From NCBI GenBank assembly GCA_017541995.1, contig JAFXYD010000045.1, forward strand, positions 1 to 43,679: DNA of 43,679 nucleotides, in the 5' to 3' direction. Shown here piece after piece: positions 15,253 through 43,499 of this stretch. This stretch comes from Oscillospiraceae bacterium. Lineage in GTDB: Bacteria; Bacillota; Clostridia; Oscillospirales; Oscillospiraceae. A program made the position numbers and the translations under genes. Each line of letters starts with the position of its first letter. Positions within the stretch are counted from its first letter, which is position 1. Below the pieces are notes generated by a model. That model made no database searches. It was not told the origin of the DNA and saw nothing but the letters and a program-made list of their open reading frames with translations.

Positions 15253-17547
15253 TCAGCCGAGCACCGGGGCGTCGCCTGCCTTCTGGGCTTGATTGCGCAT
15301 GGCGGGGTCCTTGGCGTCGCCCTTTTTCCGGGCGATCTCCTCCATGGCTTGCCGCTGGCTGACCTTGGCCAGGTCCGCCTCCTCGGGCTTCACGGTCTTA
15401 TAGAGCTTGGCGATCTTCAGAATATCCTGGGCGGCCTCGATGCGGCCCTGGGTGTAACCGGAGTAATCCCCGAGCTTCTTTGCCCCGGTGCTGATGCCCT
15501 TGTAGCTGAGATAGCGCTCGGCGGCCTTCTCCAGCTTCTCCGCCAGCTTCGCCATCTTCTCCACTTCTTCGGGCTTGACAATGGCGTTGAGCTGCTGGGA
15601 ATAGTTCGGCTCCGCTTTGACGTCAGCGCTGTTGGCCACGGACACCCGGGTCAGGATCTTCTTCTGATAGTTGAACAGATCCTTGGCGGCGCTCTCCATG
15701 TCGCGGTACTTGCCGGAGCTGTGGAAGAGCTTGGTGTTCCGCTCCAGCATCCGCTGTACTCTGCCGGCATCGTTCTGGGCGGTCTCCAAGCCGTCGACGC
15801 GGCAGCGGTTCTCCGCGTTGAGCACCACGTCGCCCCGCAGCTGATAGCTGACGTTGGTGACCTGACGGTTCTTCGCGTCGGTGATGGCCGTGTAGGCGCA
15901 GGAGAAGATGTTGCCGTGCTCCTTGGCCTTGGGGACCTCCTTGCCCTTCTCGTCGGTCTTCACCACCAGATCCTTGAGATCCAGCTTCCGGAACTGCTCG
16001 TCCGGCAGGATGCGGATGCGTCCCTGCACAAAGAGGGGCTTGCCGTCCTTCGTCTCTCCGACCACCGGATTCTCCATGCTCTTCTGAATGGCGTCCTGCA
16101 TCCGCTCGAGCCGGGCGCAGGCGGCGTCCAGCTGCTTCTCGGTGAGACTGTAGCCCCGCAGCGCGTATTTCAGCGTGGGGGCCTTCAGGGCCAGGACCCG
16201 GTTCGCCATGGATGCGGACATGCAGCGCATATTGTCCAGCCCCGCCAGCCGTCTGCGGGACTCGCCGCCCTTGGGCACGAACTCCCCGAAGCTGCAGTCG
16301 TTGTCGATGCCCTGGATGCCGATGAGCTTGCCGGTCTTTTCGTCGATCTGATAGAAGATGTTGCCCATGTGCCGGTCCACGTTGCCGCAGATGAAGTCCA
16401 GCACCTGCAGATCCGCCAGCTGCCGGAAGGCGTTGCCGTCGGTGCCCTCAATGGCCGATTGCTTCAGCAGCTCCGTTTTGGTGTAGCGGTTGTTGAGGTC
16501 GATCCCCTTGGCCTCCACCATGAAGGTGCCATCCAATTCCACAGGCTTGCCATTCTCGTCCAGCACCGTGAGCTTCATGGGGCGGGATCTGGCCAGCAGA
16601 TTCGGCTGGCCCAGCAGATCCGCCACGGCGCTCATGGCGGCGTTGCGGGTGTCGATCCGGGAATCGTCGGAGATGCCGGCCTGCTCCATGTTGGCCATGA
16701 CCTGGGTGGCATAGGGCTCCAGCAGGGATTCAATCTGCTCCAAAACGTCCGCGCCCAGCTTGTTGACAAGCTCGCCGGGCCGCATTTTGTTGAGCTTTGC
16801 CAGATAGCTCTTCAGCTTCTCGGTGTTGACGGAAAAGCCGTGATTGGCCGGGTTGTAATCGGTGACGCTGGACATGAGCGTATACAGAGCGGCGTAATTA
16901 TCGCTTTTCAGGATGGTGTTTTCCGGCAGATTTTTCGGATCCGCCAGATTGCCCAGCACGCTCATAATGATGTCTTTTTGAATCAGAGAATTGGATTCCT
17001 GCGCGATATTGTACAGCTTGTCGCTGATGGTATCGTAGACCGCGTCCTTCAGCTTGGGGGTAAAGACGCCGTTGACTCTGCGGCCCTTTTCATCCAGGAA
17101 GGAGATGATCTTGCGCTGGGAAAGGGTCTTTCCCACGGCTTTCGTCTTGGAGCGGCCCATATCCAGATGCAGCGCCCGGAGCTCCTCGTCGATGGTGTCC
17201 ACAGACTTCGGCTTGAGGCTGGGATCGTAGCCGGAAATGTTGGTGAAGCTCTTGGAGGACAGGGCGAAGATCTTCTCCATGAGCTGCTTCACTTCTTTGC
17301 TGTTGTTCTGTTTCAGAACCGTCTCCGATTCCGCTGCCACCCGCTCATGGAGCTCCATCAGCTTCTCCTTGTCGGCCTGGGTGACGTAGGGAATTCTCTT
17401 GTACTTGTCGGGCTTCCGAAGCTTCGCGGTGTACTGGTTGATTTCATTCAGAGCGTTCAGCAGCGCCGGATGCTCGGCGTTCTTCATCTGGGTCTTGAGA
17501 GACTCATACAGGGACTCGAGGGTGTTTTCCGCTGCGGGCTTTGGCAT
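15253..17547 (-). CDS. Large uncharacterised protein with a PI3/4-kinase/HipA-like catalytic core
   Basis: A 764-residue soluble, Lys-rich protein without signal peptide or membrane segment. The centre contains NVDRHMGNIF (Asp391-Arg-His-Met-Gly-Asn396) followed by GIQGIDNDCSFGE (Asp415/Asp417). This is the DRHxxN catalytic loop plus metal-binding Asp pair of the PI3/4-kinase, HipA and related protein-kinase-like folds. FMVEAKG (Lys347) just before may supply the ATP lysine. The N-terminal 300 and C-terminal 280 residues are mainly helical with no recognised domain. The ATG at 17545-17547 is preferred, 8 bases after GGAGG. It is a single-gene unit, convergent with thrC and divergent from htrA, with a -10-like TACAAT at 17611-17616. 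Its DNA looks less GC-rich than its neighbours', a possible sign of transfer. No HipB-type partner is adjacent. The kinase assignment is motif-based. Confidence 0.8.
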   Translation of the reverse strand: MPKPAAENTLESLYESLKTQMKNAEHPALLNALNEINQYTAKLRKPDKYKRIPYVTQADKEKLMELHERVAAESETVLKQNNSKEVKQLMEKIFALSSKSFTNISGYDPSLKPKSVDTIDEELRALHLDMGRSKTKAVGKTLSQRKIISFLDEKGRRVNGVFTPKLKDAVYDTISDKLYNIAQESNSLIQKDIIMSVLGNLADPKNLPENTILKSDNYAALYTLMSSVTDYNPANHGFSVNTEKLKSYLAKLNKMRPGELVNKLGADVLEQIESLLEPYATQVMANMEQAGISDDSRIDTRNAAMSAVADLLGQPNLLARSRPMKLTVLDENGKPVELDGTFMVEAKGIDLNNRYTKTELLKQSAIEGTDGNAFRQLADLQVLDFICGNVDRHMGNIFYQIDEKTGKLIGIQGIDNDCSFGEFVPKGGESRRRLAGLDNMRCMSASMANRVLALKAPTLKYALRGYSLTEKQLDAACARLERMQDAIQKSMENPVVGETKDGKPLFVQGRIRILPDEQFRKLDLKDLVVKTDEKGKEVPKAKEHGNIFSCAYTAITDAKNRQVTNVSYQLRGDVVLNAENRCRVDGLETAQNDAGRVQRMLERNTKLFHSSGKYRDMESAAKDLFNYQKKILTRVSVANSADVKAEPNYSQQLNAIVKPEEVEKMAKLAEKLEKAAERYLSYKGISTGAKKLGDYSGYTQGRIEAAQDILKIAKLYKTVKPEEADLAKVSQRQAMEEIARKKGDAKDPAMRNQAQKAGDAPVLG

Positions 17548-17771
17548 AATCAATTCCTCCCTTTCTCAGGTGCAGGCTGTGGCCGAGGGTGTTCGGCTGT
17601 TTCTGGGGCTATTGTAACACACAACCTGTACAAAAACATTACAAAAAACCGTGCCGGGAGAAAAATAATGGAATTGTTCATAATTTTTTTTGTTTTTCCG
17701 CAAACTATGTTAAAAATTCGGCGCTACAATGACAGCGTAAACAGAAAACAACAGCAAAGGAGTGCTGAGAT

Positions 17772-25536: not shown

Positions 25537-25603
25537 CGACTTACAATCCCGATTTGCTGTTCCCATTATATCACAATTGTGCCTCCGTGGCAAAGAAAAA
25601 CCT

Positions 25604-25632
25604 TTGCATATTGGAGCTGTATATGCTATAAT
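25604..25632 (+). promoter_or_regulatory. Promoter of the murB-whiA cluster
   Basis: TTGCAT (25604-25609), a 17-bp spacer and a perfect TATAAT (25627-25632). The leader to murB is about 55 bases. Confidence 0.88.
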
Positions 25633-25694: not shown

Positions 25695-26597
25695 ATGACG
25701 GAATCCCTCTTTGAAAGTTTACATAATGCCCTTCCGGAGCTGCCCCTGCTGGCGGCGGAGCCCCTGGCGAAGCACTGCTCCTTCCGCATCGGCGGCCCGG
25801 CGGAGCTGCTGGCCTGTCCCCGGAACGAAGCGGAGCTGCGGGAGCTCTGGCTGGCCTGCCGGGAGCTGGGGATCAGCCCCCGGATCCTGGGGGGCGGCAC
25901 CAACGTCCTGGCCCCGGACGAGGGGGTGCCCGGCCCGGTGATCTCCACCCGGGGCCTGGACAGCCTGGAGCTGCTGGAGGACGGCAGCCTCAGCGCCGGG
26001 GCCGGAGTGCCCCTGGCCCGGCTGGCGGTCTTCGCCCAGAAGCAGGGCCTCACGGGCCTGGAATTCGCCCACGGCATTCCCGGCACCGTGGGGGGCGGCA
26101 TGTATATGAACGCCGGGGCCTACGGCGGCGAGCTGGCCCAGGTCGCTGTCTCCGCCCGCTTTCTGACAGCGGAGGGAGAAATCAAGGACTTTGTGGGGGA
26201 GGAAATGGGTCTGGGCTACCGACGCAGCGCCTTCATGGGCCTGCCCGGAGTCATCGTCTCCGCCCGCTTCCGGCTTCAGGCCGGAGATCCGGAGGCCATC
26301 CAGGCCCGGATGCGGGAGCTGATGGAGCGCCGCAGGGCCTCCCAGCCCCTGGAGCTGCCCTCGGCAGGCTCCACCTTCAAGCGCCCCGTGGGGGGCTACG
26401 CTGCCGCTCTGATCCAGGAGGCGGGGCTGAAGGGCTTCCGGGTGGGGGACGCCGCCGTGTCGGAGAAGCACGCGGGCTTCGTGGTGAACCTGGGCTCCGC
26501 CACCGCCGCCGAGGTCCTCACCCTCATGGCCCGGGTCCGGGAGACCGTCAAGGCCAAGTCCGGCATCGAGCTGGAGCCGGAGGTAAGGATCTGGTAG
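25695..26597 (+). CDS. murB: UDP-N-acetylenolpyruvoylglucosamine reductase
   Basis: A 300-residue FAD enzyme completing UDP-MurNAc synthesis by NADPH reduction of the MurA product. FAD-binding blocks are CSFRIGGPAEL, ILGGGTNVLAPD and the long GIPGTVGGGMYMNAGAYG segment. PSAGSTFKRP near residue 220 carries the catalytic serine, and the domain-3 pattern of the short (type II) MurB is present. The ATG at 25695 follows GGAGCG. It begins the cluster murB, RapZ-C/Nudix fusion, whiA, with one base between the first two genes. MurA lies 3 kb upstream on the same strand under a separate promoter. Confidence 0.95.
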   Translation: MTESLFESLHNALPELPLLAAEPLAKHCSFRIGGPAELLACPRNEAELRELWLACRELGISPRILGGGTNVLAPDEGVPGPVISTRGLDSLELLEDGSLSAGAGVPLARLAVFAQKQGLTGLEFAHGIPGTVGGGMYMNAGAYGGELAQVAVSARFLTAEGEIKDFVGEEMGLGYRRSAFMGLPGVIVSARFRLQAGDPEAIQARMRELMERRRASQPLELPSAGSTFKRPVGGYAAALIQEAGLKGFRVGDAAVSEKHAGFVVNLGSATAAEVLTLMARVRETVKAKSGIELEPEVRIW

Positions 26598-26598
26598 C

Positions 26599-27414
26599 AT
26601 GAGTGAAATTACCTTGATGTCCTTCGGCTACGTCTTCGGACCGCCGGAGGGGGCGGACACCGTCATCGGCACCCGGGGGCTTCCGAATCCCTACTGGGCG
26701 GAGGAGCTGAAGCACAAAACCGGCCTGGATCAGGAGGTTCGGGACTATGTGTTCTCCACGCCGGAGGTCGAGGCCTATTTTGAAAGCTGCCTGGATATGC
26801 TGCGACGGCGAATCGCCTTCTATGAACGGTACGACAGCCCGCTGAAGACCCCTCTGCTGATTGCCGTGGGCTGCACCGGGGGCAAGCATCGCTCCGTCAG
26901 CATGACCCTGCGGCTGGCGGCGGCCCTGGCGGGGGAGGGGATCCCCGTCCGGGTGCTCCACCGGGACCTGGACAAGGTCCTGGAGCACAGCGCCGGAGCC
27001 GTGGTCTTTACCAGACAGGCGGGGGAGCCCCGCTTTGTGATCCTGCGCTCGGTGTTCGGAAACCCGGGCTTCCCCAAGGGCCACATCGAGGCCGGGGAGA
27101 ACGACCGGGACACGGCGCTGCGGGAGGCGGAGGAGGAGATCGGCCTCCGGATCCGTCTGCTGCCGGGCTTCCGGACCGTCAACGTCTTCCCCCTGCCGAA
27201 CAGGCCCAAAACCTGGAAGCAGGTGGTCTACTACCTGGGAGAATACGAAAACCAGCCCCTGCGGCCCCGGGAGGGGGAGATCGCGGAGGCCAGGCTGCTG
27301 CCCTATGAGGCCGCTCTGAGCGCCCTTTCCTTTGAAAACACCCGGGGCGTCCTCCGGGAGGCGAAGGCCTTCCTGGACGGGCTGCCCGCTCCCCGTCGCA
27401 GCGGCGGTCATTGA
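26599..27414 (+). CDS. Fusion of a RapZ C-terminal-type domain with a Nudix hydrolase
   Basis: A 271-residue two-domain protein. Residues about 3-128 match the C-terminal domain of RapZ/YvcJ: SFGYVFG, GLPNPYWAEELKHKTGLD, VRDYV, GCTGGKHRSV (91-100) and a closing LHRDL. In E. coli RapZ this domain binds RNA and the amino-sugar signal. The N-terminal P-loop kinase domain is absent. Residues about 133-260 are a Nudix hydrolase with a complete Nudix box (161-183: G-x5-E, then REAEEEIGL), which would cleave a nucleoside-diphosphate-linked compound. In Bacillus the order is yvcI (Nudix)-yvcJ (rapZ)-yvcK-whiA; here the first two appear fused in reverse order and yvcK is missing. The start is one base after the murB stop codon. 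The stop codon lies inside a palindromic repeat. Confidence 0.85.
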   Translation: MSEITLMSFGYVFGPPEGADTVIGTRGLPNPYWAEELKHKTGLDQEVRDYVFSTPEVEAYFESCLDMLRRRIAFYERYDSPLKTPLLIAVGCTGGKHRSVSMTLRLAAALAGEGIPVRVLHRDLDKVLEHSAGAVVFTRQAGEPRFVILRSVFGNPGFPKGHIEAGENDRDTALREAEEEIGLRIRLLPGFRTVNVFPLPNRPKTWKQVVYYLGEYENQPLRPREGEIAEARLLPYEAALSALSFENTRGVLREAKAFLDGLPAPRRSGGH

Positions 27415-27419: not shown

Positions 27420-27470
27420 ACAATTATTCAGTATTCATTTTTCATTTCTTCGCCTCCGGAGGTGGCTGCG

Positions 27471-28361
27471 ATGTCCTTTTCATCCGACGCAAAGGCAGAG
27501 CTTTGCAAGGATTTCATCAACAAAAAATGCTGCGCCCTGGCGGAGGCCAGCGGGGTGCTGCTGTTCTGCAGCGGCATCAGCGGCGAGCAGATCAAGCTGG
27601 TGACGGAGAGCGAGGCCTTTGCCGCCCGTCTGCCCCAGCTCTTTCACAAGGCCTTCCGGCTGGACTTCGACGAGGTCCAGGAGGGGGGCAAGTTCAGCTT
27701 CTGGATCAACGACCCGGAAAAAATCGCGGGGATCTTTGAGGCCATCGGCTACAGTCCCGCCGAGAGCATCACCCTCCACGTCAACTACGGCCTGCTGGAG
27801 AAGGACTGCTGCCGCCTGGCCTTTCTGCGGGGGGCCTTCCTCTCCGGGGGCTCCGTCACGGACCCGGAAAAGCGCTACCATCTGGAGCTCACCACCAACC
27901 ACCACAAGGTGAGCCGGGAGACGGAGCGTCTGCTGACAGAGCAGGGCTTCGCCCCCAAGACCACCCTCCGCAACGGCAGCTCCATCCTCTACTTCAAGCA
28001 GAGCGAGGCCATCGAGGACGTGCTGGCCTGGCTGGGGGCCCCGGTGGCGGCCATGGGGGTGATGGAGGCCAAGATCGAGAAGGAAATGAAAAACAAGATC
28101 AACCGCATCGTCAACTGCGACAACGCCAATACCTCCAAGGTGGTGGAGGCGGCCCAGACCCAGATCGCCGCCATCCGCAGGCTCCGGGAGCAGGAGCTGT
28201 TCGAGAAGCTGCCCGAGAAGCTGAGGCTGACCGCTGAGCTCCGGGAGGCCAACCCCGAGGCGAACCTGACCGAGCTCGCGGAGATGTTTGATCCGCCCCT
28301 GACCAAGTCCGCGCTCAATCACCGACTGCGCAAGCTCACGGAGCTTGCAAATGAAGAGTGA
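27471..28361 (+). CDS. whiA: WhiA-type DNA-binding regulator
   Basis: A 296-residue protein conserved in Gram-positives, linked to cell division and sporulation in Streptomyces and to chromosome segregation/division in Bacillus. The N-terminal half is a LAGLIDADG-like fold (FLRGAFLSGGSVTDPEKRYH) without nuclease residues. The C-terminal half (about 200-290) is a helix-turn-helix ending LTKSALNHRLRKLTELA. The start is the ATG at 27471, with GGAGG 8 bases upstream; an earlier in-frame start would run through repeat DNA. It follows the RapZ-C/Nudix gene by 56 bp. Its last codons and stop lie in an octamer repeat. Confidence 0.95.
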   Translation: MSFSSDAKAELCKDFINKKCCALAEASGVLLFCSGISGEQIKLVTESEAFAARLPQLFHKAFRLDFDEVQEGGKFSFWINDPEKIAGIFEAIGYSPAESITLHVNYGLLEKDCCRLAFLRGAFLSGGSVTDPEKRYHLELTTNHHKVSRETERLLTEQGFAPKTTLRNGSSILYFKQSEAIEDVLAWLGAPVAAMGVMEAKIEKEMKNKINRIVNCDNANTSKVVEAAQTQIAAIRRLREQELFEKLPEKLRLTAELREANPEANLTELAEMFDPPLTKSALNHRLRKLTELANEE

Positions 28362-28436: not shown

Positions 28437-31400
28437 ATGTCATTCGTACACCTCCATCTACATACAGAATACAGCCTTCTGGACGGGGCCTGCCGCATCG
28501 GGAAGCTGATGGACCGGGTGAAGGAGCTGGGGCAGAGCGCCGTGGCCATCACGGACCACGGGGTCATGTACGGCGTCATCGACTTCTACAAGGCCGCCAA
28601 GGCGGCGGGGATCAAGCCCATCATCGGCTGCGAGGTCTACGTGGCCCCCCGGACCCGCTTCGACAAGGTCCACGGCATCGACAACGAAAACGCCCATCTG
28701 GTGCTGCTGTGCAAAAACGAGACCGGCTACCGGAATCTCAGCTACCTGGTCTCCAAGGGCTTTCTGGAGGGCTTTTACGGCAGGCCCCGCATCGACATGG
28801 AGCTGCTGCGGCAGCACAGCGAGGGCCTGATTGCCCTCTCCGCCTGCCTGGCCGGGGCCATTCCCCGGAGGCTCAAGGCCGACGACTACGAGGGCGCCAG
28901 GGCCCTGGCCCTGGAATACAGCTGCATGTTCGGCCCCGACAACTTCTATCTGGAGCTCCAGGATCACGGCATCGCGGAGCAGGCCCGGATCAATCCCATG
29001 CTGCTGCGCCTGGCCCGGGAGCTGCAGCTGCCCCTGGTGGTCACCAACGACGCCCACTACCTCCGCCGGGAGGACGCCCCCACCCAGGACGTGCTGATGT
29101 GCATCCAGATGGGCAAGACCGTGGACGATCCCAACCGCCTGCGCTTCGAGAGCGACGAGTTCTACGTCAAGTCCGAGGCGGAGCTGCGGCAGCTCTTCCC
29201 CCAGCTGGAGGAGGCCTTCGAGAACACCGCCCGCATCGCCGAGCGCTGTAATGTGGAATTTGAGTTCGGCCACTACCATCTGCCCGCCTACGAGGCCCCA
29301 GACGGCTCCGACTCGCTGACGTATTTCCGGAAGCTCTGCGAGGAGGGCTTCGCGGAGCGTTATCTGAACGCCTCCACGACCTCGGGTAGCGGCGCACAGT
29401 GTGCGCCACGGGACCTGTCTGCCTCGGGCGGGAGCCCGATGAGCGCCTCTTCAGTGGCGGAGTATCGCAAGCGGCTGGACTATGAGATGGGCGTCATCGA
29501 GAAGATGGGCTACGTGGACTACTTCCTCATCGTGGCGGACTTCATCCGCTGGGCCAAGGAGCAGGGCATCCCCGTGGGCCCCGGCAGAGGCTCCGGCGCG
29601 GGCTCCATCGCCGCCTACTGTATGCACATCACCGAGATCGACCCCATGCAGTACGCCCTGATCTTCGAGCGCTTTCTCAACCCGGAGCGGGTCTCCATGC
29701 CCGACTTCGACACGGATTTCTGCCAGGAGCGCCGGGGCGAGGTCATCGACTACGTGACCCGGAAGTACGGCAAGGACCGGGTGGCCCAGATCGTCACCTT
29801 CGGCACCATGGCCGCCCGGGGCGCCGTCCGGGACGTGGGCCGGGCTCTGAATATGAGCTACGCCGAGACCGACGTGGTGGCGAAGGCCATCCCCAACGAG
29901 CTCCACATGACCCTGGAGCTGGCCCTCACCAAGAACCCCAGGCTCAAGCAGATGTACGACCAGGACCCCAAGGTCAAGAAGCTCATCGACACCGCCCGGG
30001 ACATCGAGGGCATGCCCCGCAACACCTCCACCCACGCGGCGGGGGTGGTCATCACGGCCCGGCCCGTCTCCGACTACGTGCCCCTGGCCCGGAACGAGGA
30101 CACCGTGGTGACCCAGTTCACCATGACCACCATCGAGGAGCTGGGCCTGCTGAAGATGGACTTCCTGGGCCTGCGGAACCTCACCGTCATTGACGACGCG
30201 GAGAAGAAGATTCGCCGGAGCGTCCCCGGCTTCTCCATGAAGTCCGTCCGGGACGACGACCCGGAGACCTTCGCCATGCTGGGGGAGGGCAAGACCTCCG
30301 GCGTCTTCCAGCTGGAATCCTCGGGCATCACCGGGGTCTGCGTCCAGATGAAGCCCCAGTCCATCGAGGATATGACCGCCATCGTGGCCCTCTACCGTCC
30401 GGGCCCCATGGAGTCCATCCCCAGGTTCATCCAGTCCAAGCACCACCCGGAGACCATCTCCTACATCACCCCCCAGCTTCAGCCCATTCTGAACGTCACC
30501 TACGGCTGCATCGTCTATCAGGAGCAGGTCATCGAGATCTTCCGCAAGCTGGGCGGCTATACCCTGGGCCAGGCGGACAATATGCGCCGGGCCATTTCCA
30601 AGAAGAAGCAGAACGTCATCGTCCAGGAGCGGCAGGCCTTCGTCTACGGCGACCCTGCCCGGGGCATCCCCGGGGCCGTGGCCAACGGGGTCAAAGAGGA
30701 GGCGGCCCAGCAGATCTACGACGAGATCCTGGACTTCGCCAACTACGCCTTCAACAAGGCCCACGCGGTCTGCTACGCCAAGGTGAGCTACGACACCGCC
30801 TGGCTCAAGTGCCACTATCCCCGGCAGTACATGGCGGCGCTGATGACCTCCATGCTCTCCGACACCGAGAAGGTGGCGGGCTATATCGCAGACTGCAGGG
30901 ACATGGGCATCGAGCTCCTGCCCCCGGACGTGAACCACTCCGAGGACGTCTTCACCGTGGAGGGGGACAAGATCCGCTTCGGCCTGGGGGCCGTGAAGAA
31001 CGTGGGCCGGGGGCTGATCCAGAAAATGACCGCGGAGCGGGAGAAGAACGGCCCCTTCACCGGCATCGCCGCCTTCTGCAAGCGGCTGAACGACACCGAG
31101 CTCAACCGCCGTGCCGTGGAAAATCTCATCCGCTGCGGCGCCATGGACTGCTTCGGCCTGCGCCGGAGCCAGCTGCTGGCGGTGTACGAGTCCGTCATGA
31201 CCTGGGTCAGCGGCGAGAGCCGCCGGAACCTGGCGGGCCAGCTGGGGCTCTTCGACAGCCTGGAGGACCGGGAGAACGAGCTCAGCCTCCAGGTGCCGGA
31301 CATTCCGGAGCTGGATCTCTTCGAGCTGCTGGCGGGGGAGAAGCAGACCACGGGCCTGTACATCTCCGGCCACCCCATGGACAAGTACCGGGAGGCCCTG

Positions 31401-31973
31401 GCCCGCACCGACGCCAAGCCCATCCGGGCCGTGATCGGGGAGGGCTCCGGCTTCCGGGACGGGGACCAGGTCACCGTCTGCGGCGTGATCCAGTCCGTCA
31501 CCACCAAGAGCACCCGAAACAACAGCCTCATGGCCTACGTGACCCTGGAGGACGACAGCGCCTCGGTGGAGATGCTGGTCTTCTCCGCCACCCTGTCCCG
31601 CTGCGAGGCCCTGCTGCAGCCCGGCGCCGCCGTGGCGGTGGAGGCCCGGGTATCCCTCCGGGACGAGAAGCCCACCCAGCTCATGGTAAACAGCGTCACG
31701 GAGCTGGACCGCTTCGCCCGGCAGGGGGCCGCGCCCCGGCGGGAGCTGCATCAGCTCCGGCCCTGCGGCAGGCTCTATCTGAAGCTGCCCTCCGAGGACA
31801 GCCTGGAGTATCAGAAGACCCGGGCGATTCTGAATATGTTCCCCGGCTCTGTCCAGGCGGTGCTCTATTTTGCCGATACCGGCGTCCGCCGGGGGGCCCT
31901 GTGCAGTCCCGAGACCGTGATGGTGGAGGAGCTGAAGAGCCTGCTGGGCTCGGAGGCCGTGGTGGAGAAGTAA
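28437..31973 (+). CDS. dnaE: DNA polymerase III alpha subunit with an in-frame repeat insertion
   Basis: An 1178-residue replicative polymerase of the DnaE type. An N-terminal PHP domain (starting HLHLHTEYSLLDG) leads to the palm, where PDFDTDFCQERR places catalytic Asp423 and Asp425. The fingers include FNKAHAVCYAKVSYDTAWLK. An OB-fold follows near 1020-1090 (VTVCGVIQSVTTKSTRNN). Firmicutes use DnaE beside PolC, so it may act in primer extension or repair; no polC is in the window. Residues about 312-340, between FAERYLNA and AEYRKRLDYEMG, where other DnaE proteins have only a short linker, translate a GTAG palindrome and flank. AGAAGGGAG precedes the ATG at 28437. It follows whiA across the octamer hairpin. 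Confidence 0.95.
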   Translation: MSFVHLHLHTEYSLLDGACRIGKLMDRVKELGQSAVAITDHGVMYGVIDFYKAAKAAGIKPIIGCEVYVAPRTRFDKVHGIDNENAHLVLLCKNETGYRNLSYLVSKGFLEGFYGRPRIDMELLRQHSEGLIALSACLAGAIPRRLKADDYEGARALALEYSCMFGPDNFYLELQDHGIAEQARINPMLLRLARELQLPLVVTNDAHYLRREDAPTQDVLMCIQMGKTVDDPNRLRFESDEFYVKSEAELRQLFPQLEEAFENTARIAERCNVEFEFGHYHLPAYEAPDGSDSLTYFRKLCEEGFAERYLNASTTSGSGAQCAPRDLSASGGSPMSASSVAEYRKRLDYEMGVIEKMGYVDYFLIVADFIRWAKEQGIPVGPGRGSGAGSIAAYCMHITEIDPMQYALIFERFLNPERVSMPDFDTDFCQERRGEVIDYVTRKYGKDRVAQIVTFGTMAARGAVRDVGRALNMSYAETDVVAKAIPNELHMTLELALTKNPRLKQMYDQDPKVKKLIDTARDIEGMPRNTSTHAAGVVITARPVSDYVPLARNEDTVVTQFTMTTIEELGLLKMDFLGLRNLTVIDDAEKKIRRSVPGFSMKSVRDDDPETFAMLGEGKTSGVFQLESSGITGVCVQMKPQSIEDMTAIVALYRPGPMESIPRFIQSKHHPETISYITPQLQPILNVTYGCIVYQEQVIEIFRKLGGYTLGQADNMRRAISKKKQNVIVQERQAFVYGDPARGIPGAVANGVKEEAAQQIYDEILDFANYAFNKAHAVCYAKVSYDTAWLKCHYPRQYMAALMTSMLSDTEKVAGYIADCRDMGIELLPPDVNHSEDVFTVEGDKIRFGLGAVKNVGRGLIQKMTAEREKNGPFTGIAAFCKRLNDTELNRRAVENLIRCGAMDCFGLRRSQLLAVYESVMTWVSGESRRNLAGQLGLFDSLEDRENELSLQVPDIPELDLFELLAGEKQTTGLYISGHPMDKYREALARTDAKPIRAVIGEGSGFRDGDQVTVCGVIQSVTTKSTRNNSLMAYVTLEDDSASVEMLVFSATLSRCEALLQPGAAVAVEARVSLRDEKPTQLMVNSVTELDRFARQGAAPRRELHQLRPCGRLYLKLPSEDSLEYQKTRAILNMFPGSVQAVLYFADTGVRRGALCSPETVMVEELKSLLGSEAVVEK
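29376..29453 (+). repeat. GTAG palindrome inserted in frame in dnaE
   Basis: A GTAG palindrome (29386-29407, stem GGCGCAC/GTGCGCC) is followed by CTGCCTCGGGCGGG (29419-29432), which also occurs inverted beside the palindrome at 43573-43595. The frame remains open, adding roughly 29 residues. Confidence 0.85.
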
Positions 31974-41687: not shown

Positions 41688-43499
41688 ATGTTTGTGGATC
41701 GGAAATTCAAGGAGCGCCTTCCCGAGCAGACCGTCGCCAAGATTCAATCCATTCTGGCAGCCCACGGCATCGAGACCCTGGAAAGCGGCGTCGCCAGCGG
41801 CGTCAAGCACTGCCACTCCATGCGGGTGTCGGTAAAGGACGTGGAGTTCGGCGCCAACGGCAAGGGCATGACCGAGGCCTATTCCAGGGCCAGCGGCTAC
41901 GCGGAGTTTATGGAGCGGCTGCAGGGGGGCTATCTGACCCGGCGGATCTGGCGGGATCAGTGCCTGGACTTTCCCGATGAGCGGCAGCTGAGCCGGGAGG
42001 CGTGCACCGCCTCCTGCGGGGAATGGATCGACGCCATGCAGCGCAGCCTCTCCGCCCTCTTCGACCGGGAGATCCCCCGGAGCCAGATCCTGCGCAAGCT
42101 CTTCGAGGCCGACGGCGAGGCCGAAACCGTGGCCGCCCTGCCCTTCTACGACCCCCAAAACGACCGGCAGGTCTGGTTCCCCAAGAAGGCCATGGCCTTC
42201 CTCTACAACACCAACGGCCTGGCGGCGGGCAACGATCTGACGGAGGCCGCGGTCCAGAGTCTCAGCGAGATCTACGAGCGGCACAACCTGGTGCGGATGT
42301 TTTTCGGCAATTTCGTGCCGCCCACGGTGCCGGAGGACTGTCTGCGGCAATATCCCAGGGTCTGGGAGATCATCGAGGATCTGCGGGCCACGGGCCTGGA
42401 GGTGCTGGTGAAGGACTGCTCCCTGGCAGAGCCCTTCCCCCTGGTGGCGGCGGTGGTCATCGACCGGCCCCACCACGCCTACCACGTCCATCTGGGGGCC
42501 TTCCCGGCCTTTGAGATTGCCCTGGAGCGGGCCTTCACCGAGATGTTCCAGGGCCGCACCCTCGGGGACGTGGCCAACACCAACACCCTGGCCGCCGGGG
42601 ACAGCAAAAAGCGCTCCAACGCGGAGCTCATCAAGTTCCTTACCACCGGCTGCGGCCGCTACCCCCTGTCCTTCTTTTCGGATGAGCCCAGCTATCCCTT
42701 CAAGCCCTTCCCGGACCGGGCCGACAGCTCCAACCGGGCCCTGCTGCGGGAGTATCTGGACTATTTCGCCGCCCAGGGGGCCCCGGTCTACTTCCGGGAC
42801 ATCTCCCATCTGGGCTTCCCCTCCATCCGGGTGGTGGTCCCCGGGTTCAGCGAGATCATGCCCACCCAGCTGCTGGACCGCTTCCCCATTGCCTGGCTGC
42901 TGGAGCGCTACAAAAAGGCCCCCCTGGACCTGCGGGCCCTGACGGAGGACGAGCGCTTTGAGTATCGGATGCTGCTGGACTACCTGGCCGCCAACTACGG
43001 CCCCGACGCCTTCGATTTCCTCTTCCTCTCCGGCCGCAACCTGGACCGGAGCAACCGCAACGTCTGCCGCTTCCTGGGCCGTATGGCCTACGGCTGGCTG
43101 GAGTGGGAGCGGGACCGGGAAACCGCCCTGGGCTTCATCCGGGCCGCCTTCCCAGTGGCGGAGCCCGAGGACGCCCGCTATCTGTCCTGCTATCTGGCCT
43201 TCCGGGAGCAGCTGCAATCCGGCGCGGACCGGGCTGTGATCCGCTCCGCTCTCTCGCTGCTCTACGGGGCGGAATACGCCGCCGAGGCCGACGCGGTGCT
43301 GGCGGCAGGGGAGAATCCCTTTGCCAAATACCTGGTGCGCTGCACGCCCGCACTCTGCCCCGCCTGCCCGTACCACGAGAGCTGCACCGGCTGGACCACC
43401 GATGAGTTTATCCGGAAAATCCGGGACATTGTGAAACAATTCGACAGCGCACAGGCCTACGAGGGCCTGCGGCGGGCGTTTGGTAAAATTGAAAATTGA
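41688..43499 (+). CDS. ycaO: YcaO-family ATP-dependent protein with a C-terminal cysteine cluster
   Basis: A 603-residue protein, close in size to E. coli YcaO. The YcaO core shows GKGMTEAYSRASGYAEFMER (about 58-77), NTNGLAAGNDLTEAAVQSLS then EIYERH (about 174-199) and ERAFTEMFQGR (about 283-293), the ATP-binding blocks of the family. After a helical region near 410-530 comes C-x5-C-x2-C-x5-C (RCTPALCPACPYHESC, about 552-567), which could bind a metal or Fe-S cluster. YcaO enzymes activate amide backbones with ATP. It is the last gene of recX-rimO-pgsA-ycaO, with no cyclised-peptide precursor nearby, so a role with RimO is more likely than natural-product synthesis. The ATG at 41688 follows CAAGGAG. 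The last residues (KIEN) and stop are encoded by repeat DNA. Confidence 0.9.
   Translation: MFVDRKFKERLPEQTVAKIQSILAAHGIETLESGVASGVKHCHSMRVSVKDVEFGANGKGMTEAYSRASGYAEFMERLQGGYLTRRIWRDQCLDFPDERQLSREACTASCGEWIDAMQRSLSALFDREIPRSQILRKLFEADGEAETVAALPFYDPQNDRQVWFPKKAMAFLYNTNGLAAGNDLTEAAVQSLSEIYERHNLVRMFFGNFVPPTVPEDCLRQYPRVWEIIEDLRATGLEVLVKDCSLAEPFPLVAAVVIDRPHHAYHVHLGAFPAFEIALERAFTEMFQGRTLGDVANTNTLAAGDSKKRSNAELIKFLTTGCGRYPLSFFSDEPSYPFKPFPDRADSSNRALLREYLDYFAAQGAPVYFRDISHLGFPSIRVVVPGFSEIMPTQLLDRFPIAWLLERYKKAPLDLRALTEDERFEYRMLLDYLAANYGPDAFDFLFLSGRNLDRSNRNVCRFLGRMAYGWLEWERDRETALGFIRAAFPVAEPEDARYLSCYLAFREQLQSGADRAVIRSALSLLYGAEYAAEADAVLAAGENPFAKYLVRCTPALCPACPYHESCTGWTTDEFIRKIRDIVKQFDSAQAYEGLRRAFGKIEN

Follow-up and report, generated by a model that had tools for sequence, protein, structure and literature searches.

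RapZ of Escherichia coli and YvcJ of Gram-positive bacteria consist of a P-loop, kinase-like N-terminal half and a C-terminal domain, here called RapZ-C, with a characteristic pocket motif. In E. coli, RapZ-C alone binds sRNA, and its pocket, as defined in the cited passages, touches the RNA backbone (PMC5737377, PMC9841335); the domain is also reported to bind GlcN6P (PMC7073468). According to the same passages, D182A abolishes dimers of this domain (PMC5737377), and the action of RapZ on GlmZ requires K170 as well as the pocket (PMC9841335). YvcJ of Bacillus subtilis is described as binding UDP-GlcNAc, for which its Walker lysine K22 is needed (PMC7525490). In the experiments cited for Enterococcus faecalis, YvcJ gives a thermal shift with UDP-GlcNAc and none with GlcN6P, and K18 is needed (PMC10986989).

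The Nudix protein YvcI of B. subtilis, which has RNA pyrophosphohydrolase activity, is presumably encoded beside yvcJ of the yvcJ-glmR-whiA cluster. The same protein, also called NahA, is reported to convert (p)ppGpp to pGpp (PMC7584652). In other Nudix enzymes a tyrosine is tied to ApnA activity, and the passages cited suggest that ApnA hydrolases possibly act on RNA 5' ends too (PMC5389931).

The window analysed here, the whole stretch of 43,679 nucleotides from an Oscillospiraceae bacterium, carries a gene in which RapZ-C is followed by a Nudix domain (Table 1). With RapZ/YvcJ, the fusion has in common the C-terminal domain, the pocket motif and the place between murB and whiA; it differs by the lack of the P-loop N-terminal domain and of the residues K170 and D182 of E. 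coli, by a genome in which no YvcK gene was found, and by the extra Nudix domain. With the asymmetrical Ap4A hydrolases (human NUDT2, Aquifex aq_158, Chlamydia CT771) it shares the fold, the Nudix box and an FPKG[HR]xE stretch. The X-loop ApnA tyrosine occurs in 10 of 12 Nudix halves that were aligned, the window copy (F197) and that of the relative G215 having Phe. Unlike in these enzymes, its Nudix domain follows RapZ-C; in the AlphaFold2 model, a gap of five residues separates the last RapZ strand (117-121) from the first Nudix strand (127-140). Among open-licence papers, no report on a RapZ-C-Nudix fusion was found by title or by the start of the abstract.

Table 1. Features of the fusion locus in the window, and Nudix fusions with other partners in relatives
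Feature	Position	Strand	Basis
Promoter-like site ahead of murB	25603..25632	+	consensus scan
murB, directly upstream of the fusion	25695..26597	+	NCBIfam NF010480 above cut-off
RapZ-C-Nudix fusion gene, 271 aa	26599..27414	+	ORF, Pfam, AlphaFold2 model
RapZ C-terminal domain, residues 3-125	26605..26973	+	PF22740, E 4.7e-35
Pocket motif GCTGGKHRS (ligand/phosphate), residues 91-99 (E. coli 246-254)	26869..26895	+	alignment
Nudix domain, Ap4A-hydrolase type, residues 132-243 (Pfam)	26992..27327	+	PF00293, E 2e-16; profile; Foldseek
Nudix box GX5EX7REUXEEXGU, residues 161-183	27079..27147	+	motif
Position of the ApnA-specificity tyrosine (F197)	27187..27189	+	alignment
whiA (yvcL), downstream of the fusion	27471..28361	+	TIGR00647 above cut-off; start picked by GGAGG ahead
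dnaE (presumed), next in conserved order	28437..31973	+	order seen in relatives
GrpB- or DUF4298-Nudix loci in relatives	L112:4508-5521, L113:4386-5318, L115:4759-5727, L049:6869-7600		domain scan

The fusion protein and its locus

The match to the RapZ_C profile covers positions 2-121 of 121. When the halves are searched separately, RapZ-C alone gives E 7.2e-36 and the Nudix half also matches, while the P-loop kinase-like domain (PF03668) is not found by Pfam in the 271-aa protein. The RapZ equivalog model of NCBIfam (NF003828) reaches 119.1 bits against a cut-off of 244, and only its C-terminal part is matched. The first-pass annotation of this DNA had proposed one protein with RapZ-C followed by Nudix, placed between murB and whiA, with the P-loop half missing and the pocket motif and Nudix box intact, and all of this is confirmed.

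An AlphaFold2 model of the fusion (pLDDT 95.2, pTM 0.81) was obtained from 26 rows, namely the window protein, two fused relatives, 15 phage RapZ-C and eight phage Nudix sequences; an earlier model from a 3-row alignment (pLDDT 43.5) was unusable. The modelled Nudix fold extends to about residue 260, beyond the Pfam end at 243. For the RapZ half, E. coli RapZ stands at ranks 40 and 45 of the 50 Foldseek matches listed (8b0i: 34% identity, rmsd 2.0, 126 columns). PADLOC gave one weak match, on residues 158-192 (E 3.3e-4).

An assembly artefact or frameshift is ruled out, since the fusion is a single open frame in 11 of the 23 genomes of the genus, as well as in two GTDB contigs that are seemingly assemblies of G215 and G219. 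A pseudogene is ruled out by dN/dS and the intact motifs. Among the 26 pairs listed of the 55 pairs of fused genes, dN is 0.04-0.24 for RapZ-C and 0.03-0.48 for Nudix, with dS of 0.28-2.9 (two values saturated). Judged by these rates, selection on the RapZ-C half is clearly purifying, and it appears weaker on the Nudix half, with dN/dS up to about 0.7 among these pairs.

The ATG of the fusion gene lies one base past the TAG of murB. A promoter-like site precedes murB and none was found between murB and whiA, which makes a single operon of murB, fusion gene and whiA likely; the consensus scan used alone gave 2 such sites in the region versus 0.6 expected by chance. The start of whiA had been placed at a TTG (27411); it is more probably the ATG at 27471, which has a GGAGG at 27458-27462. 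The next reading frame is presumably dnaE.

Elsewhere in the window, a 766-aa protein (15253-17553, minus strand) has a weak match to PI3/PI4-kinase below the cut-off (26.5 versus 27.1 bits). A YcaO cyclodehydratase-family protein of 603 aa is encoded at 41688-43499 (plus strand), and the gene ahead of it looks pgsA-like by eye only.

Distribution and descent

In the genome to which the window belongs (78.5% complete) there is one RapZ-C match; the RapZ N-domain model gave only a 27-residue match below the cut-off, on another contig, and the CofD/YvcK model gave none, so that neither a full-length rapZ nor a yvcK was seen elsewhere in it. These models were run on three of the 23 genomes of the genus, and the other two, G096 and G164 (95% and 98% complete), had no match to either. 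A match to the fusion occurs in 15 of the 23. Apart from the window's own, 10 genomes have the fusion in one frame, at 60-93% identity to it; G212 encodes a RapZ-C of 126 aa and a Nudix protein of 147 aa in adjacent, separate genes; and in G096, G203 and G210, RapZ-C stands alone at the murB-whiA locus, with a similar Nudix elsewhere in the genome of G203.

The remaining eight are without a match. In G164, G208 and G213, whiA lies straight behind murB with nothing between, and in G214, itself a member of the fused clade, the place is taken by an ORF of about 198 codons that is unrelated to the fusion (L105:1088-1830). The fusion gene is therefore dispensable. As for the other four, the contig of G202 ends beside whiA, G211 has neither murB nor dnaE within 9 kb around whiA, and whiA was not matched in G204 and G216.

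In the family, RapZ-N was matched above the cut-off in 174 of 200 genomes and CofD in 101; the absence of YvcK is thus common and that of RapZ-N rare. Hence the absence of yvcK to which the first-pass annotation pointed holds for the window's genome but is unspecific, 99 of the 200 having no CofD match. Of the 26 family genomes with no RapZ-N above the cut-off, 19 have no RapZ-C either and seven do: two of the window's genus (g1), two of g93 and three of g53. All seven show the order murB, RapZ-C, whiA, dnaE, and six of their RapZ-C proteins are stand-alone, with 122-140 aa. A kinase-less RapZ-C between murB and whiA is therefore found in three genera, and murB also lies upstream at the kinase-less loci examined whose 5' side was covered. 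Across a sample of the phylum, RapZ-C was matched in 390 of 398 genomes. No other match spanning both halves was found among the best matches listed for the 200 family and 394 order genomes, in searches where the fusions of the genus score above 340 bits.

Genus g34 has a separate Nudix gene in the cluster, in the order murB-rapZ-yvcK-whiA-Nudix-dnaE (L035, L036, L037). A glmS ribozyme as GlcN6P sensor in the clade is ruled out, none being found in 28 genomes of g1, g53 and g93; it was matched in the B. subtilis control and in the relative G128.

A tree of murB, whiA and dnaE from 50 genomes separates 24 that have full-length RapZ from 26 that lack it (local support 0.95), and in the RapZ-C tree the 20 kinase-less sequences of g1, g53 and g93 form one clade (99/97). 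When 29 genomes were placed in a tree with three full-length-RapZ genomes as root, a single clade (100/100) took in the fused genomes plus G212, G214 and G202. The RapZ-C-only lineages branch before this clade, from which it would seem that Nudix was acquired after the kinase half had been lost. In the Nudix tree, the 11 fused halves group together (98/96) and leave the separate Nudix gene of G212 outside; support for all 12 together is 74/67.

The simplest account of these trees would be that the kinase half was lost once, leaving RapZ-C alone, that Nudix was then placed beside it and fused to it, and that several complete losses followed. G212 could be either a stage before the fusion or a later fission, as both are compatible with the species tree (AU test of fused genomes without G212, p 0.145); the Nudix tree sets it outside the fused clade, and the RapZ-C tree joins it to RapZ-C-only G210 and fused G200 (81/94). 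A derivation of the fused Nudix from the Nudix between whiA and dnaE of g34 is not favoured, since a split of 86/87 (on a branch not starred) separates them. The first-pass description of the locus as a condensed yvcI-yvcJ-yvcK-whiA cluster does not agree with this split, nor with the earlier branching of the RapZ-C-only lineages. On the question of whether kinase-less RapZ-C came from phages, the RapZ-C tree sets the phage rows apart (99/90), but the AU test does not reject a joint clade (p 0.306); vertical descent is favoured because of synteny. This tree used 15 of the 21 viral loci, six being omitted as near-copies or partial (L124, L132, L134, L136, L137, L143).

Pocket, RNA-binding residues and Nudix type

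The RapZ-C alignment holds 45 sequences: 25 full-length and 20 kinase-less, the latter comprising nine RapZ-C-only (G212 included) and 11 fused. SFG, D20, R26, N30-P31, G42, GC[TS]GGxHRSV and R122 are present in all 45 and H121 in 44; the pocket motif is invariant save for T/S at 93 and the variable position 96, and GC[TS]GGxHRS was found in 13 of 13 RapZ-C halves examined. The E. coli pocket residues T248, G249, H252 and R253 are T93, G94, H97 and R98 in the window protein, where R184 is kept too, and T/S248, G249, H252 and R253 are retained in all 20 kinase-less sequences. At pocket position H190 the window protein has Y32, and the 25 full-length relatives likewise have Tyr or Phe.

Other positions have changed with the loss of the kinase half. 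K170 is Lys in 24 of 25 full-length sequences; among the 20 kinase-less ones, only G052 has Lys and only G203 Arg, and the window protein has V12. From the RNA-binding set K170, K270, K281, R282 and K283, only K281 is retained (K126), while K270, R282 and K283 are I115, V127 and L128, where the last two were assigned by register, as the alignment to E. coli stops at 281. P231 is present in 25/25 full-length and 0/20 kinase-less sequences; F185 is F in 21 and C in three of the full-length, and G or C in every kinase-less one. D182 is conserved in all full-length and seven of nine RapZ-C-only sequences, and is Gly in G210, G212 and the 11 fused; the dimer residues F181 and D182 are I23 and G24 in the window protein, with Ile and Gly in 11/11 fused. 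Selection seems to have held the pocket as a small-ligand site and not the sRNA-adaptor surface. The first-pass remark that the RNA-binding half is kept is not supported, although T248, G249, H252, R253 and R184 are retained.

The sensing of amino sugars, also put forward at first, holds for E. coli RapZ. UDP-GlcNAc binding as in YvcJ requires the Walker lysine, which lies in the half absent from the fusion, and because E. faecalis YvcJ shows no shift with GlcN6P in the experiments cited, the ligand of the fusion may not be an amino sugar.

The Nudix box is intact in 12 of 12 Nudix halves. Ap4A hydrolases are the six best of the 60 PDB profile matches listed, CT771 included, and fill ranks 1-12 of the 50 Foldseek matches listed (Aquifex, human, Chlamydia CT771, C. 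elegans). Mycobacterial MutT1 (Rv2985), which is also among the fold matches, is likewise described as a two-domain Nudix protein; unlike in the fusion, its Nudix domain is N-terminal. The partner domain of MutT1 is a histidine phosphatase.

With Ap4A hydrolases as the nearest structures, and with neither the 50 fold matches nor the 60 profile matches listed naming a Nudix enzyme for UDP- or GDP-sugars, the initial suggestion of a nucleotide-sugar hydrolase, which would act on cell-wall precursors such as UDP-GlcNAc and would suit a place behind murB, has become very improbable. An improbable reading as well is that of a (p)ppGpp hydrolase like NahA (YvcI), by which the fusion would link alarmone levels to the state of the cell wall: the conversion of (p)ppGpp by NahA and the presumed place of yvcI beside yvcJ agree with it, but among the PDB sequences and structures compared, Ap4A hydrolases come closest to the fused Nudix.

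The account that we favour, plausible if somewhat short of probable, is that of an Np4N-type Nudix hydrolase controlled by a RapZ-C sensor and expressed with murB and whiA. RapZ-C, freed from the P-loop half, would be a phosphate- or phosphosugar-binding sensor in cis to Nudix. A ligand at the GCTGGxHRS pocket, the oligomeric state or both may switch hydrolysis, and the substrate would be of the Np4N type: an Np4 cap at the 5' end of RNA or a dinucleoside polyphosphate in free form. Being expressed together with murB and whiA, the enzyme would have its output coupled to the supply of cell-wall material. In favour of this account are the domain and fold assignments, the retained pocket motif and Nudix box, the ApnA tyrosine in 10 of 12 halves, the kinase-less RapZ-C beside murB and whiA in three genera, the purifying selection and the links of RapZ-C with Nudix on plasmids and viral contigs described below. 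Against it stand Y32 at pocket position H190, F197 at the ApnA tyrosine of the window copy, the absence of a GlcN6P shift in E. faecalis YvcJ, the dispensability of the gene, the fusion of similar Nudix domains to other partners, and the RapZ-C-only and full-length RapZ loci at which no Nudix was found in the stretches covered. The functional part of the earlier reading stands in part, and the observation behind it in full.

The chief rival, in our judgement unlikely, is RNA decapping. RapZ-C would grip RNA at the pocket and present its 5' end to the Nudix site, as a one-chain analogue of RapZ with RNase E, the caps being of Np4 type in Clostridia and of NAD type on Streptomyces plasmids. The binding of sRNA by E. 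coli RapZ-C alone, the contact of its pocket with the backbone, the occurrence of E. coli RppH among the 50 fold matches listed and the possible action of ApnA hydrolases on RNA 5' ends all agree with this. However, Lys170, needed for GlmZ in E. coli, is lost in 19 of 20 kinase-less proteins, K270, R282 and K283 are lost in the window protein, and the cited passages on B. subtilis YvcJ give no evidence of RNA binding (PMC7525490).

It could also be imagined that RapZ-C is merely a scaffold for oligomerisation or for interaction with MurB, WhiA or GlmS, the Nudix domain doing ordinary Ap4A clean-up. RapZ-C is the more conserved half, and this type of Nudix takes several partners: when seven Nudix proteins of relatives in the same order were scanned, three similar domains were fused to GrpB and one to DUF4298. 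For the same reason one fusion alone proves little. The pocket motif is kept throughout, however, and D182, needed for E. coli dimers, is Gly in all 11 fused proteins, which leaves the scaffold distinctly unlikely.

Linkage of RapZ-C and Nudix on plasmids and viral contigs

Searched at the protein level, 92 of 72,556 plasmid records gave a match, of which 60 were listed; none of the 92 matches covers 80% of the query. Among those listed, at least five Streptomyces records match both halves in one annotated gene. Four were examined (L183, L184, L185, L187), and all have RapZ_C and NUDIX and no RapZ-N by Pfam; in L186 both halves match, yet the annotated protein has RapZ_C only, and in L188 the match spans a RapZ-C gene and a gene on the opposite strand. 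The Streptomyces plasmid proteins, annotated as RNase adapter RapZ (WP_331764885, WP_006351134, WP_119994938, WP_328753586), have RapZ-C followed by Nudix, as in the window protein, and no kinase half. They differ from the window protein in their plasmid context, in a product name that omits Nudix and in the Nudix subtype, for which WP_331764885 was compared. The best PDB matches of the L183 Nudix include NMNAT-Nudix, AraR and NrtR-type Nudix chains, with no Ap4A hydrolase among the best 23; the NMNAT-Nudix match would also suit the removal of NAD-type caps. On the basis of these matches, for one of the four, the Streptomyces fusion is taken as a second origin with another Nudix subtype, the four being counted as one event because they are close to one another. 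A second RapZ-C-Nudix fusion with another subtype makes chance a less likely explanation and suggests that the two halves function jointly.

Nudix genes also occur next to RapZ-C. On plasmid pPR2 of Planobispora rosea, 17 bp lie between the end of a Nudix gene and the RapZ-C gene that follows; in viral contig L126, the stop of RapZ-C and the start of a Nudix gene overlap as ATGA; in viral contig L138 a Nudix gene is upstream; and on a Kitasatospora plasmid one follows with one gene between. The fusions on Streptomyces plasmids and the neighbours on the Planobispora plasmid and the two viral contigs are new. Nudix was found within or near RapZ-C at eight of 32 loci (11 plasmid, 21 viral), where the plasmid loci were chosen partly for their Nudix match and five of the eight positive loci supplied rows to the HMM. 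The same HMM found no Nudix elsewhere in three whole plasmids (84 kb), nor, within the stretches covered, at six RapZ-C-only chromosomal loci or at 22 full-length RapZ loci, from which three g34 loci with Nudix were left out. The link is recurrent, not general.

It is possible, if doubtful, that RapZ-C is an autonomous regulatory module with Nudix hydrolases as recurrent partner, two subtypes being fused and others adjacent on chromosome, plasmids and phage contigs. If so, the RapZ family would, outside enterobacteria, have the turnover of nucleotide alarmones or non-canonical RNA caps as a core function, and the kinase half with the RNase E adaptor role would be one specialisation. The fusion may be looked upon as a dissection made by evolution: the kinase half is gone, no YvcK was found in the window's genome, and the C-terminal domain remains at its locus with an enzyme whose substrates can be assayed. 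Two small proteins, the fusions of Clostridia and Streptomyces, allow direct tests of ligand, substrate and gating.

Stand-alone RapZ-C also occurs in viral contigs (L123-L143) and phages, many of these proteins having about 115-140 aa. Like the fusion they are without the kinase half, as is phrog_18111, and they differ by the absence of Nudix from the chain, a Nudix gene lying beside them in two of 21 viral loci (L126, L138). Despite the absent P-loop half, viral stand-alone RapZ-C and phrog_18111 are labelled 'ATPase' or 'RNA binding protein'.
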